The notes under the pieces were generated by a model. That model was not told the DNA's origin, did not search any database, and saw nothing but the letters and a program-made list of their open reading frames with translations. From NCBI GenBank assembly GCA_002690725.1, contig NZFS01000013.1:5559-59647 (forward strand): DNA of 54,089 nucleotides. The letters are read 5' to 3'. A program made the translations under genes and the position numbers. This document shows positions 9,248 to 41,505 of this stretch, in pieces. The stretch is from Gammaproteobacteria bacterium. GTDB lineage: Bacteria > Pseudomonadota > Gammaproteobacteria > Magnimaribacterales > D2472. Every line of letters starts with the position of its first letter. Position 1 is the first letter of the stretch.

Positions 9248-9700
9248 ATGATACTTAATTTTACAGACCCGTTTTTCACAACACGTGTATTAGGGTTCGA
9301 ACCTTTGTTTGATAGATTGCAAAGACTTTCTGAGTCTAATGATCGATCATCAAGCTATCCACCATACAACATAAGTAAAGATGGTAATTTATTTGCCATC
9401 GAAATTGCTGTTGCTGGTTTATCCAAAGATGATATTCAAATTGAACTTGCAGAAGGCGTCCTTTCTGTTAGTTATGATGGACCAAAAACAGAAGTTGTGA
9501 ATGGTGATAATCAGGTTGTTTATCAGGGTATAGCTCAGCGAGCATTCAAACAACAATTTACCCTTTCAGAAGATGTTGTTGTCCAAGGTGCAGAGCTGGT
9601 AAATGGTTTGTTAACCATAAGCCTTGAGAAAATCATTCCTGATGAAAAGAAACCTAGAATGATTGAGATTAAATCACCAAAAAGAATCTCAAGCAAATAA
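9248..9700 (+). CDS. Small heat shock protein Hsp20 (IbpA-like)
   Basis: ATP-independent holdase that binds unfolding proteins during heat stress. The alpha-crystallin domain spans about residues 35-140: YPPYNISKDGNLFAIEIAVAG at the start and the A-x-x-x-n-G-x-L signature (AELVNGLLTISL) near the end. An N-terminal FEPLFDRLQRLSE segment and the YPPYNI motif are as in E. coli IbpA. 150 residues is normal. An AAGGAGG ribosome site precedes the ATG by 6 bp and appears to be sequestered in a ROSE-like hairpin. A strong hairpin follows the stop codon, so the gene is probably monocistronic. Confidence 0.93.
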   Translation: MILNFTDPFFTTRVLGFEPLFDRLQRLSESNDRSSSYPPYNISKDGNLFAIEIAVAGLSKDDIQIELAEGVLSVSYDGPKTEVVNGDNQVVYQGIAQRAFKQQFTLSEDVVVQGAELVNGLLTISLEKIIPDEKKPRMIEIKSPKRISSK

Positions 9701-36790: not shown

Positions 36791-37411
36791 TCAAAAAAAG
36801 AAAAACTTTTTTCTTTTGAGTTCTTTTGCACAACCCCAGTATTGCTTTTGATATTTTGTAGATCTTCCTTGAACCCTATCAGCAACTTTTATTAACCACT
36901 GCTTCTTTCTATATGTCTTCTTTTTGAAGCCGGTGTAACCCTCGTGATAAGCAAGATACAGTGACCTTGCATCTGTTTTTTCAAATCCCTGATAATAACC
37001 TTTACTAGCATACCAACCAATAAAATCTGCAGAATCTTGAAAGTTTTTTCTACTGGCTCGAGTATTTCCAGTTTCATCCTTATAATCCTCCCAAGTTTTT
37101 GTAAGTGCTTGAGAGTATCCAACTGCTGATGATGGTCTAAACCAAGGAATAAAACCAAGAATTTTTTCTCTATCAGGCCTTGCATCTGCCTGAAAGCTCG
37201 ATTCTTGGTAAACAAACGACATCAAAACATATGGAGGGATTTTCCATCTTTTTTCACTCCTAATTACTGCTTTGTACCAACTTTTTTTTTCTTTAAAAAT
37301 TAAGCAAATATTATCCGGATTTTCGGGTGGTTTGGTTACACAGGAATTTAACACTGTTATCATTAACAAAAAAATAAGATGATTTAATCTAAATTTTTTC
37401 ATCTTCATCAA
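36791..37411 (-). CDS. Lytic transglycosylase-like lipoprotein (SLT domain)
   Basis: About 206 residues. A lipoprotein leader (FLLMITVLNSC, L-N-S-C lipobox) precedes an SLT-type lysozyme-like domain: PPYVLMSFVYQESSFQADA with the catalytic Glu in the QESSF motif, SSAVGYSQALTKTWEDY, and YLAYHEGYTGF. It should cleave peptidoglycan with formation of 1,6-anhydro-muramyl ends. The 5' end overlaps the DNA ligase gene by 23 bp; an ATG at 37402 is also possible. The stop codon adjoins that of the convergent peptidase gene with no gap. Confidence 0.85.
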   Translation of the reverse strand: MMKMKKFRLNHLIFLLMITVLNSCVTKPPENPDNICLIFKEKKSWYKAVIRSEKRWKIPPYVLMSFVYQESSFQADARPDREKILGFIPWFRPSSAVGYSQALTKTWEDYKDETGNTRASRKNFQDSADFIGWYASKGYYQGFEKTDARSLYLAYHEGYTGFKKKTYRKKQWLIKVADRVQGRSTKYQKQYWGCAKELKRKKFFFF

Positions 37412-38678
37412 AACCTCTAAAATTTTTAAATCTAGGGAACCTTAAGCTGTAATTCTCGCTTTCTATGCTTTGCGTAATTGCATCTGCTCTTATTTCAATC
37501 ATTCTTCCAATTAATCTATCTTTGGCAGTCCAAAATTTTTCACGCTCACTATCGGTTAGGCCACTACCAACACTTAAAGAAAAAAACTTTCCATCGTCTT
37601 TACCCTCAACAAAAAAAGCACCTAGCTTGCCTTCATGTTTTCCAGAGCCCTCTTGTATATCAATAATCTTAAGTGTTACTTCAATGAATGGTTTTATTTT
37701 TAACCAAGCATGGCTTCTTTTGCATTCATAAAAGTTGTCATTAGGTTTTATCATTAAGCCTTCAAATCCTTTATCAAGAGCCTCTTTATTCATATCAGAA
37801 AACTTTTGTTGACCAATTTCTTGATCAAAATTAATGATTTCATAATCAACTAGCTTTATAGAAGAATCAAATGTTTTTGAAAGTTTATTTAGTTGCTCTT
37901 TTCTCTCAATAGTATTTAGTTTGCTTTTTCCTGTATTAAATTCCTTAAATGGTAAAATATCAAACAGCGCAAGATAAGCATCATCAGTTTTGGCTCCAGA
38001 CTTTCTATACACCTGTTTCATCAATGCCTGAAAATCATCACTCATAATTTCACCATCAAAAACTAAACCATTGTATTCAGGCTTACTTAAAGCTTCTTCT
38101 ATATGGGGAAAATTACTAAAAATTTTGCCGTTGCGACTGTATAAAATGGCCTGTCCATTTTTTACAATTCCTATTACTCTTACGCCGTCATACTTGTACT
38201 CAACTAAGCAATCACCTTTTATTTTTTTTGGATGTTTTGCGCCATCATGAGCTAGCATGCATGAAAAAATTGGTATCCTAAATTTTAAACTGTTCTTTTT
38301 TGCAACATTGTTTACAGTTTTCTCGCTGACTCCACATCTAAGGTCTTTGATCAATATTCTTCTGTACCAGTCATTCCATTGAATAATAGAAGAAGATTCA
38401 ATTAATTTAATAATAAGATCTCTTGCTGCATGACCAGTTTTGTCTCTTTTAATTAATAAACTAGCAGCATTTTGAAATTCATCCCAATCAAGACCAGGAC
38501 CGTCACTTTTACATTCAGGAACCTGTTTGACACCAAAGGTAACAAGAGGATCGAGACACATAGATAAACCTTCTTGAAAGATTTTATCCTCTAAGTGCAT
38601 TTCAATAACGCTTTCTTTAAATAATCTACTGTTATTACTTTCAAGTTCTTGAATAATTTCCCAAGGTTTTATTGTCAT
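37389..38678 (-). CDS. ATP-dependent DNA ligase, T4-phage-like, at the ligA position
   Basis: 429 residues with every nucleotidyltransferase motif of ATP-type ligases: motif I YKYDGVR with Lys162 as adenylation site, III VFDGEIMS (Glu210), IIIa YLALFDILPF, IV KGFEGLMIKP, V AWLKIKPF, and a C-terminal OB domain with SLRFPRF. About 140 residues precede motif I and include TGHAARDLIIKLI and RRILIKDLRCGVSEKTVNNV, which parallel T4 ligase (RDLECG; motif Lys at 159). It lacks the zinc-finger, HhH and BRCT domains of NAD-dependent LigA. It lies 4 bp after zipA, exactly where ligA sits in other gammaproteobacteria (smc-zipA-ligA), so it is probably the replicative ligase. Confidence 0.92.
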   Translation of the reverse strand: MTIKPWEIIQELESNNSRLFKESVIEMHLEDKIFQEGLSMCLDPLVTFGVKQVPECKSDGPGLDWDEFQNAASLLIKRDKTGHAARDLIIKLIESSSIIQWNDWYRRILIKDLRCGVSEKTVNNVAKKNSLKFRIPIFSCMLAHDGAKHPKKIKGDCLVEYKYDGVRVIGIVKNGQAILYSRNGKIFSNFPHIEEALSKPEYNGLVFDGEIMSDDFQALMKQVYRKSGAKTDDAYLALFDILPFKEFNTGKSKLNTIERKEQLNKLSKTFDSSIKLVDYEIINFDQEIGQQKFSDMNKEALDKGFEGLMIKPNDNFYECKRSHAWLKIKPFIEVTLKIIDIQEGSGKHEGKLGAFFVEGKDDGKFFSLSVGSGLTDSEREKFWTAKDRLIGRMIEIRADAITQSIESENYSLRFPRFKNFRGFDEDEKI

Positions 38679-38682
38679 AGGA

Positions 38683-39306
38683 TTAAGCTCCTACAGTTTT
38701 ATTTTTATTTAATTGTTTTAATCTTGCGATGTCTTGTGCTTTCGATTCAACGTGAGATATCATTTGTTTAGAAATTGGTGTTCGATCTTGATCACATAAT
38801 GTTGCATCGAATTTATCCGAAAACGCTAAAGCAAATTCAATCATTTGTTTTACAGTATTATATGGATCTAAAGTAGAATATAGATCGGCAACAATTGTTA
38901 CTGCAAATGTTTGAGTTATTTCCTCAAATGTTCCGGGCTTTAAAGCATTAATTACTCTAAATTTTTCGACTCCATCTTCATAAAATACATAATAGTTATT
39001 AGTGTTAACTGCGCCAAGATTTGAAAGAAAGCCAATTATTTGATTAATATCAAACATGGATCTATCCATAGATATTAAGTTTAAAATTACTAATTCTTGT
39101 TCTTTTGAAACCTCTTTGTAAAAGTTAAAAGATTCTTGTTTTTTTGGAATTTCTTGAGAAATATTCAAGGTATTTGTATCAGATACTTTTTCGATTTTAA
39201 TCTTTAATTTTCCATCGTTAGATATCTTTCTAATATATAAAAAAACAATTATTAAAAATATTAATACTGCCAATCCAATTAAATATATTTGTGAGTTTAT
39301 AGCCAT
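38683..39306 (-). CDS. zipA: Cell division protein ZipA
   Basis: Membrane anchor of FtsZ in the gammaproteobacterial divisome. One N-terminal transmembrane helix (about residues 5-25), a short charged linker (only about 40 residues; E. coli has over 150) and a C-terminal ZipA domain: QELVILNLISMDRSMFD, YYVFYEDGVEKFRVINALKPG and TVKQMIEFALAFSDKFD. 207 residues against 328 in E. coli; the shortening is in the linker. It follows smc directly (stop/start adjacent) and precedes the ligase by 4 bp. Confidence 0.88.
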   Translation of the reverse strand: MAINSQIYLIGLAVLIFLIIVFLYIRKISNDGKLKIKIEKVSDTNTLNISQEIPKKQESFNFYKEVSKEQELVILNLISMDRSMFDINQIIGFLSNLGAVNTNNYYVFYEDGVEKFRVINALKPGTFEEITQTFAVTIVADLYSTLDPYNTVKQMIEFALAFSDKFDATLCDQDRTPISKQMISHVESKAQDIARLKQLNKNKTVGA

Positions 39307-41505
39307 CTATGATTCAGCTAATTCTAGAGCTTGATTTACATCGACTGATACCATTCTTGAAACACCAGCTTCTTGCATTGTAACTCCCATAAGATGATCG
39401 CTTCTTTCCATAGAAACTTTATTATGTGTGATAAAAATAAATTGTACATTCTTTGACATTTCTTCAACCATATCAATAAATCTTAATGTATTTAAATCAT
39501 CTAATGGAGCGTCAACTTCATCAAGTAAACAAAAAGGTGCCGGATTTAATTCGAAAAATGCAAAAACTAAAGCTAATGCTGTAAGAGCCTTTTCACCTCC
39601 AGACAACTGAGATATTGAAGAATTTTTCTTTCCTGGGGGTCTCGCCATTAAAATTACGCCAGCATTAAGAGCATCATCATCAGTCAAGGTAAGTTCTGCC
39701 ACACCACCACCAAATAATTTTGGAAACATTTCTTTCAGTTTTAAGTTTACTAAATCAAAACTTTCTTTAAAAATTGTCTTAGTCTCTTGATCAATTTTTC
39801 TTATTGCTGCACTTAATTTATCGAGAGCCTCAGTTAAATCATCATATTGTTTATCTAATTCTTCTTTTCTTTTGGTCTCTTCTTGAATCTCCTCTGGAGC
39901 AGCTAGATTTATCGCGCCTAATTTAATAATCTTGGTTTCAAGTTCAGCTAATTTGTTTTCAAGATCCTCAATATTTTTATTTTCATAATGTGAAAAGTCT
40001 ATTGTTTCAATATCAATACCAGCTTGCTCAAGTTTTTTATTTGAATTGTCTAAATTAATTTCATATGTTTTTTGTTCTATTCTTATGTTGGTAATTTTTT
40101 CAGAGATCGATCTGGCATCTAAATCTGATATTGATTTTTTATTTTCAAATTCTCTAAGCTGTTCATTAAATTTGGATTGTTTTTGTCTTAAAGATATCAG
40201 GATGGATTCAGCATTCGAACTTTTTTCTGCTAAATCTTTCATCTCATTTTCAATTAATTTTTTTTGATTTTCATCGCTTAATATTTGCCTTTCAAGTTCA
40301 CTTTGTCGCGAAAAATATTCTTCTGTTAATGTTTTTGATTGCTTGGTTGCAATATTTAATATGTCTATAAGCAAATTTTTTAGCTTTTTTGCTTTTTGGA
40401 GAATATCTTCATTATTTATTGCATATTTCTCAATTGTTCTAATAATGCCATCTAAGATATGCATTGCTTTCTCACTTGGACTTAACTCATCAAAATTCTT
40501 TTCAGTTTCCTTCGCTTTCTCATAACTTTGCTTTACTTTTTCAAGATCTGATTTTGTATCTTGTTCATTTTTATTGATATTGAGAAGATTTGCCTCTCTT
40601 TTTGCTATTTCAGCACCAATTGTGTAAAAATTCTTTTGAGCAATTTCATATTCATTTAAAGTGGATTCATTTTCTGTTCTAAATTTATCTATTTGAGATT
40701 GCGTTGTATCAGACTCTGCATTTTTAATTTTAAGATCTCTATTTAACGAATCTAATTTTTTTTGAAGACTGTCTCTGCTTGTTTTGGCTTCTATTGAAAA
40801 TAAAACCGCTTTATCAAGTTCTAACTCTGCTTTTTTTTCTTTAAGTGAATTATATTTTTCAGCAGCTTTTGCTTGATTTTCTAATCTTTTTATCATTCTA
40901 CCAATTTCATCTTTAATATCTTTTACTCTTGATAAATTTTCTTTTGTTCTTTTAATTCTTGATTCTGTTTCTCTTCTTCTCTCTCTATATTTAGAAACAC
41001 CAGCTGCTTCTTCAATATGAGTGCGGAGTTCATCTGGTTTTGCGCTTACAAGATTACTTACCATGCCCTGTTCAATAATTGCATAGGAACTTGGGCCAAG
41101 TCCTGTTCCAAGAAATATATCTTGAACATCTCTTCTTCGACACTTTATATTATTTATGAAGTAATTCGATTGAGCGTCTCTTGTCATTACTCTTTTGATT
41201 GAAACTTCATTAAATGAGATGTATTCACCACCAATCTTTCCAAGTGAATTATCAAATAAAAGTTCAATGCTACACTGACCTGATGCTTTTCTTTTTTCAG
41301 AACCATTAAAGATGACATCAACCATGGACTCACCTCTCAAATTCTTTGCAGACAGCTCTCCAAGGACCCATCTAACTGCATCAATTACATTAGATTTACC
41401 ACATCCATTTGGGCCAACAACTCCTACCATATTTGTAGGAAAAGAGATCTTCGTTGGATCTACGAAGCTTTTAAAACCTGATAGTTTTATGTGTTTTAGC
41501 TGCAT
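39307..41505 (-). CDS. smc: Short SMC chromosome segregation protein without recognisable hinge
   Basis: SMC ATPase that organises chromosomes for segregation. Both head halves are canonical: KLSGFKSFVDPT, Walker A GPNGCGKSN (31-39), YAIIEQGMVS, IEEAAGVSKYRERRRET; and, at the other end, KLGAINLAAPEE (528-539), signature QLSGGEKALTALAL (633 on) and Walker B CLLDEVDAPLDD (659-670). The middle is short: roughly residues 175-340 and 385-565 are coiled coil, separated by a short helical stretch (LSPSEKAMHILDGIIRTIEK). No SMC hinge domain can be recognised. Usual bacterial SMC has about 1,150-1,200 residues; this has 732. The frame is unbroken and the two arms are of similar length, so it looks like a real short form. 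Confidence 0.88.
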   Translation of the reverse strand: MQLKHIKLSGFKSFVDPTKISFPTNMVGVVGPNGCGKSNVIDAVRWVLGELSAKNLRGESMVDVIFNGSEKRKASGQCSIELLFDNSLGKIGGEYISFNEVSIKRVMTRDAQSNYFINNIKCRRRDVQDIFLGTGLGPSSYAIIEQGMVSNLVSAKPDELRTHIEEAAGVSKYRERRRETESRIKRTKENLSRVKDIKDEIGRMIKRLENQAKAAEKYNSLKEKKAELELDKAVLFSIEAKTSRDSLQKKLDSLNRDLKIKNAESDTTQSQIDKFRTENESTLNEYEIAQKNFYTIGAEIAKREANLLNINKNEQDTKSDLEKVKQSYEKAKETEKNFDELSPSEKAMHILDGIIRTIEKYAINNEDILQKAKKLKNLLIDILNIATKQSKTLTEEYFSRQSELERQILSDENQKKLIENEMKDLAEKSSNAESILISLRQKQSKFNEQLREFENKKSISDLDARSISEKITNIRIEQKTYEINLDNSNKKLEQAGIDIETIDFSHYENKNIEDLENKLAELETKIIKLGAINLAAPEEIQEETKRKEELDKQYDDLTEALDKLSAAIRKIDQETKTIFKESFDLVNLKLKEMFPKLFGGGVAELTLTDDDALNAGVILMARPPGKKNSSISQLSGGEKALTALALVFAFFELNPAPFCLLDEVDAPLDDLNTLRFIDMVEEMSKNVQFIFITHNKVSMERSDHLMGVTMQEAGVSRMVSVDVNQALELAES

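Follow-up and report, generated by a model that had tools for sequence, protein, structure and literature searches.

Phage-type ATP-dependent DNA ligase in the ligA position of SAR86 bacteria: probable recurrent displacement of the NAD-dependent enzyme

Results

The ligA position is filled by an ATP-dependent ligase

The stretch of DNA analyzed here (the window: 54,089 nucleotides of contig NZFS01000013.1, assembly GCA_002690725.1) comes from a SAR86 bacterium and carries, on the reverse strand at 37389 to 38678, a gene for a 429-residue ATP-dependent DNA ligase (ADL), which fills the position of ligA, as found by Pfam and PHROG matches, locus comparison and alignments. Relatives of this gene occur at 74-85% identity in SAR86 genomes, including SAR86A. 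It is very probable that this phage-type enzyme is the sole recognizable ligase of the cell, and that the ADL, once captured, was repeatedly swapped between genera into the ligA slot, displacing the NAD-dependent ligase LigA. LigA is taken to be a drug target and an essential enzyme of nearly all bacteria, and the ADLs of bacteria are regarded as dispensable accessory enzymes.

The replacement is visible at the locus itself. When the regions that cover this position are compared (39 regions, from ten genera), every one holds one or the other ligase gene at the place of the former ligA locus: 19 have ligA and 20 have the ADL gene. To the extent that contigs and gene detection permit this to be judged, the order ccmC-E-F-dsbE-ccmH-I-smc-zipA-(ligase)-SLT-M16-lipoprotein-acyl-CoA dehydrogenases is mostly conserved, and the lytic transglycosylase gene (SLT) is also the next gene after ligA in the LigA-bearing relatives. 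Two species of the window's own genus, G086 and G058, have ligA in the slot; because these congeners carry ligA there, the presence of the ADL in the ligA slot is shown directly, and not by analogy with Pseudomonas. This is in agreement with a previous reading of the window from its sequence alone, which had named smc-zipA-ligA as a conserved gammaproteobacterial order and had placed a T4-like ATP-dependent ligase, lacking the LigA accessory domains, in the third position; the interval given there (37389-39306) comprises the ligase and zipA.

LigA and the ADL exclude each other

In the draft genome of the window (79% complete), a search with PF01653 (LigA) gives no match, and PF01068 matches the window ADL alone. 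Of the 107 genomes of the family, 48 have LigA and 43 have the ADL, with 1 genome counted for both and 17 for neither (Fisher p 9e-15, with kinship not corrected for). None of the 17 genomes with neither ligase has an assembled ligase locus: 11 are without smc and 6 have smc at a contig end, and the contigs read among those six end inside smc or zipA, ahead of the ligase position. The proposal of a displacement in place had named an intact LigA at another site of the genome as the finding that would speak against it, and such a gene was looked for with a LigA protein query in 12 ADL genomes (the window's own and 11 relatives at 90-96% completeness, two of them single-contig) and in three LigA-bearing controls. 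Chance-level partial matches were obtained in two of the 12 genomes and otherwise none, and LigA was detected in all three controls. The ADL thus appears to be the only DNA ligase that can be recognized in these cells.

Domains, catalytic residues and predicted fold

The ADL has the three marks of the ATP-dependent ligase superfamily, being PF01068 (DNA_ligase_A_M, 81 bits), motif I of the form KxDG, and an oligonucleotide-binding (OB) domain (PF14743, DNA_ligase_OB_2, 45.5 bits). The PHROG family phrog_114 ("ATP-dependent DNA ligase") covers residues 7-422 (E 4e-91). The Pfam and NCBIfam matches of the window ADL include none of the NAD-dependent LigA domains (PF01653 and the accessory domains), and all listed NCBIfam ligase models score below their cut-off, so that it is not assigned to Lig E, LigC or LigD. 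These three belong to the same ligase superfamily as the SAR86 enzyme, which differs from Lig E, a protein without a DNA-binding domain, and from LigD, which is part of end joining.

The nearest solved structure by sequence is Pmar-Lig of Prochlorococcus marinus (PDB entry: 6RAU; E 1.8e-130, 51% identity; also PDB entries: 6RAR and 6RAS), which has the same architecture of DNA-binding, adenylation (AD) and OB domains, similarity over the full length and the same catalytic residues. In the AlphaFold model of the window ADL (mean pLDDT 87, pTM 0.74), seven helices precede the adenylation domain, so that the compact N-terminal helical domain fused to an AD-OB core, which defines the T4 type, is predicted to be present. 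According to this model and to the full-length alignments with Pmar-Lig and T4 ligase, the all-helical DNA-binding domain comprises residues 1-130 (38289-38678). The adenylation (nucleotidyltransferase) domain comprises residues 131-331 (37686-38288; PF01068, with approximate limits taken from the Pmar-Lig alignment), and the OB-fold domain residues 332-429, ending with the stop codon (37389-37685; from PF14743, the model and the Pmar-Lig alignment). Structural comparison matches residues 2-425 of the model to Pmar-Lig (Z 33.6) and residues 4-423 to T4 ligase (Z 25.6); the root mean square deviation of these alignments is about 10 Å, which is read as a differing relative placement of the domains in the predicted structure. 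T4 DNA ligase (PDB entry: 6DT1), a member of the phrog_114 type, shares the three-domain fold with its helical DNA-binding domain, but its sequence identity with the SAR86 enzyme is only about 21-23%. T4 ligase has a clamp-binding loop and a C-terminal extension, and the Pmar-Lig type is without both (PMC6698739). Pattern matches to a beta-clamp-like binding motif are sporadic among the ADL copies, and no conserved motif of this kind is found.

Motif I (KYDG, 38184-38195) contains the catalytic lysine, K162, which is aligned with K167 of Pmar-Lig, and K162, D164, G165, E210 and E306 all align with catalytic residues of that enzyme. All 36 SAR86 copies and all 25 viral copies compared have this lysine. 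Pmar-Lig K167, D169, G170, R172, E220 and E319 all have equivalents in the examined SAR86 copies, in which the glutamates of motifs III and IV and the motif V region are also intact, one copy having an ambiguous letter at motif III. The ratio of nonsynonymous to synonymous divergence is 0.05-0.09 between ADL pairs, which indicates that the gene is under strong purifying selection.

The nearest relatives outside SAR86 are viral

The ADLs of SAR86 group in a single clade (support 98), and the sequences nearest to this clade are ligases encoded on marine viral contigs. The closest of these, in IMG/VR (for example, L098, L096 and L143), are 52-64% identical over the whole length and, unlike the chromosomal SAR86 genes, sit on viral contigs. 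One viral record of 92.8 kb has a T4-type portal, and the neighbor genes on the sampled viral contigs include an exonuclease and a peptide deformylase of phage families. The wider ligase type is present in about 1,660-2,000 phage records. At E 1e-30, no relative of the ADL is found outside the family in the other 96 genomes of the order, or in 369 genomes of the class and 398 of the phylum; LigA is present in 84 of those 96 genomes. The generality of LigA in the order, together with the lack of ADL relatives outside the family, argues that LigA is ancestral and that a viral source accounts best for the ADL, and the tree shape and the distribution suggest a direction from phage to bacterium. 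The phage-type character proposed in the sequence-only reading is retained in so far as the enzyme is of viral type; T4 itself is not the nearest relative, the marine viral clade and the accessory ligase of Prochlorococcus being nearer. A cultured phage donor was also sought, and none was found, the best match being only 34% identical (39.6% with a viral query).

The exchange of ligase type is recurrent

The base composition of the window gene (GC content 0.32, and 0.23 at third codon positions) is like that of the neighboring genes, and its open reading frame overlaps the next gene by 23 bp, as previously noted. From these features, the swap had been taken to be old, and a single old event is not what the trees support. 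The tree of the flanking proteins requires the ligase type to have changed at least six times, and a single ADL clade is rejected on the flank data (approximately unbiased test, p 0.0002). The ADL of G043 is 88% identical to the copies of genus g9 and nested among them (support 100). The flanks of G043, when compared with g9, are 50% (zipA) and 73% (SLT) identical, versus 67% and 87%, respectively, when compared with its own genus, g6. The ADL is therefore derived from g9 and the flanks are native to g6, which means that little beyond the ligase gene was exchanged. The ADL of G049 is likewise much closer to g1 than the flanks of G049 are. The topology of the LigA tree agrees for the most part with that of the flank tree, with weak support (80) in g1. 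By these comparisons, the swap appears to be recurrent and not a single event.

Discussion

Proposed course of the replacement and its alternatives

In the proposed course of events, a SAR86 ancestor would have captured a T4-phage-type ADL from a marine phage lineage, and this gene would have moved repeatedly into the ligA slot by horizontal transfer between SAR86 genera, presumably by recombination, the NAD-dependent LigA being displaced by the incoming ADL. Pmar-Lig, which accepts the adenylate on its motif I lysine, encloses nicked DNA as a toroidal clamp (PMC6698739). By homology to this enzyme and by its family, the SAR86 ADL would be charged by ATP rather than NAD+, encircle nicks as a clamp and seal them. 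It most likely seals both Okazaki and repair nicks: since no other ligase was found, the joining of Okazaki fragments should fall to it, and the purifying selection is also consistent with a replicative role.

Four observations weigh against this course of events. The genome of the window is just 79% complete, so that its lack of LigA leans on the relatives. In G089, the only genome scored with both ligases, the slot holds the ADL, and a LigA-like fragment, about 32% identical to SAR86 LigA, ends an unrelated contig. This divergent NAD-ligase fragment (positions 9729-10292 of L074) has a short N-terminus and lies on a contig with ordinary bacterial genes; perhaps the contig is chimeric and the fragment belongs to an NAD ligase of phage type. 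In G060, which is 96% complete and without LigA, the otherwise intact ADL gene has a one-base frameshift in a run of T (L085, about position 9590; also L053). Because the frame is intact in its close sister G076, this likely reflects either a mistake in the sequence or a mutation that arose very recently, a sequencing error being probable. Finally, the clade of SAR86 copies branches beside the main viral clade, as its sister, and not from deep within it.

The incompleteness of most drafts would also fit an accessory repair ligase in cells whose LigA was missed in the assemblies, and there is precedent for such enzymes, as bacterial ADLs have been described as non-essential accessory enzymes, with a phage origin shown for some that are prophage-borne (PMC8455567), and as Pmar-Lig coexists with the NAD-dependent enzyme of its host (PMC6698739). 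The SAR86 ADL differs from the accessory Pmar-Lig in standing where LigA was; this position, the mutual exclusion and the 90-96% complete genomes, two of them single-contig, without LigA leave the accessory role strongly disfavored and very improbable. An artefact of binning or assembly, by which viral or foreign DNA was placed in SAR86 bins, might be considered for the several genomes that are metagenome bins, but many of the genomes bear single-cell style isolate names, the same native gene order recurs at 20 ADL loci from independent assemblies, and the window ADL overlaps the next gene and has the composition of its neighbors; this repeated native context refutes the artefact in practice.

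The sister position of the SAR86 clade would also be compatible with an ADL that was ancestral in SAR86, or was derived from another bacterium, and was taken up by viruses from SAR86. The many phage records with the wider ligase type, the lack of bacterial relatives outside the family, the ancestral LigA of the order, and one viral copy that branches outside all other copies, albeit on a short contig, make this direction improbable. A single ancient gain of the ADL, followed by repeated regains of LigA, would be a real replacement as well. The divergence of the ADLs between g1 and g9 is about that of LigA, so that the ADL may date to the common ancestor of these genera, and G086, which has LigA, is placed in g1 among genomes with the ADL. 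Repeated regain is nevertheless held to be rather unlikely, since the LigA tree fits vertical descent, despite the weak support in g1, and since the ADL of G043 clearly comes from g9 and that of G049 is far nearer to g1 than its flanks are. With repeated displacement of LigA as the preferred course, it can be proposed, tentatively, that the slot is a two-state locus, at which recombination between species recurrently swaps NAD-dependent and phage-type ATP-dependent ligases for one another, with the exchange confined to the gene and neither ligase being fixed even within a genus, which would imply shifting selection. If this is true, the candidates for such selection are phages that affect or require the host ligase, or the economy of NAD versus ATP.

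Relation to previous reports and significance

A case of the same kind is Babela massiliensis of TM6, a bacterium with a reduced genome in which the NAD ligase is lost and an ADL is present instead (PMC4378268). The passage concerned is a one-line note on gene content in a symbiont lineage and is silent on the old ligA slot, on recurrence and on coexisting states, all three of which are seen in SAR86, a free-living plankton lineage. New with respect to that passage are the exact in-place position, the recurrence across genera, the two states in one genus, and the free-living, abundant marine host. Apart from this note and general papers on ADLs, no report on LigA replacement was found, and no paper was found that joins SAR86 with ATP-dependent DNA ligase, or with DNA ligase and genome reduction; the coverage of the literature was incomplete, and a prior report is possible.

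In a major ocean lineage, a phage-type ADL thus appears to be the only ligase that can be detected, and the enzyme in the slot varies between species that are close relatives. The repeated exchange means that a supposedly indispensable replication enzyme can be replaced by a viral one. The two states provide natural matched pairs in which the contribution of the cofactor (NAD+ or ATP), of clamp contacts and of the LigA accessory domains to replication can be tested, and which also bear on how phage replication genes turn into host core genes.

Neighboring genes and further observations

All genes adjoining the ligase gene are on the same strand. The downstream neighbor is the lytic transglycosylase gene (36791-37411; PF19489, SLT_4). 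Upstream are zipA (38683-39306; PF04354, ZipA_C), past which the ADL reading frame begins after 4 bp, and smc (39307-41505; TIGR02168 and Pfam SMC_N), which zipA abuts. Four drafts (contig ends L112, L114, L115 and L116, of G061, G031, G030 and G047, respectively) break inside zipA just before the ligase slot; it is a speculation that such breaks might reflect both ligase states in one population.

A loss of NMN (nicotinamide mononucleotide) recycling (PncC/CinA, PF02464) along with LigA was considered and rejected: weak matches occur in 46 of the 107 genomes, with both ligase types and without depletion in ADL genomes. The CinA/PncC domain is weakly recognizable in open reading frames of about 370 residues and is apparently missing from many SAR86 genomes.

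The SMC protein of the window is of a short form (732 residues), compared with 995 residues in g9 and some others, and its form shows no link to ligase type. Pfam SMC_hinge was not detected in any SMC form checked (the window and L056, L058, L060, L065 and L077), the middle of the protein being a short conserved, helical-looking segment (LSPxEKAMHxLD...), and possibly the SMC is hinge-reduced across the whole SAR86 family.
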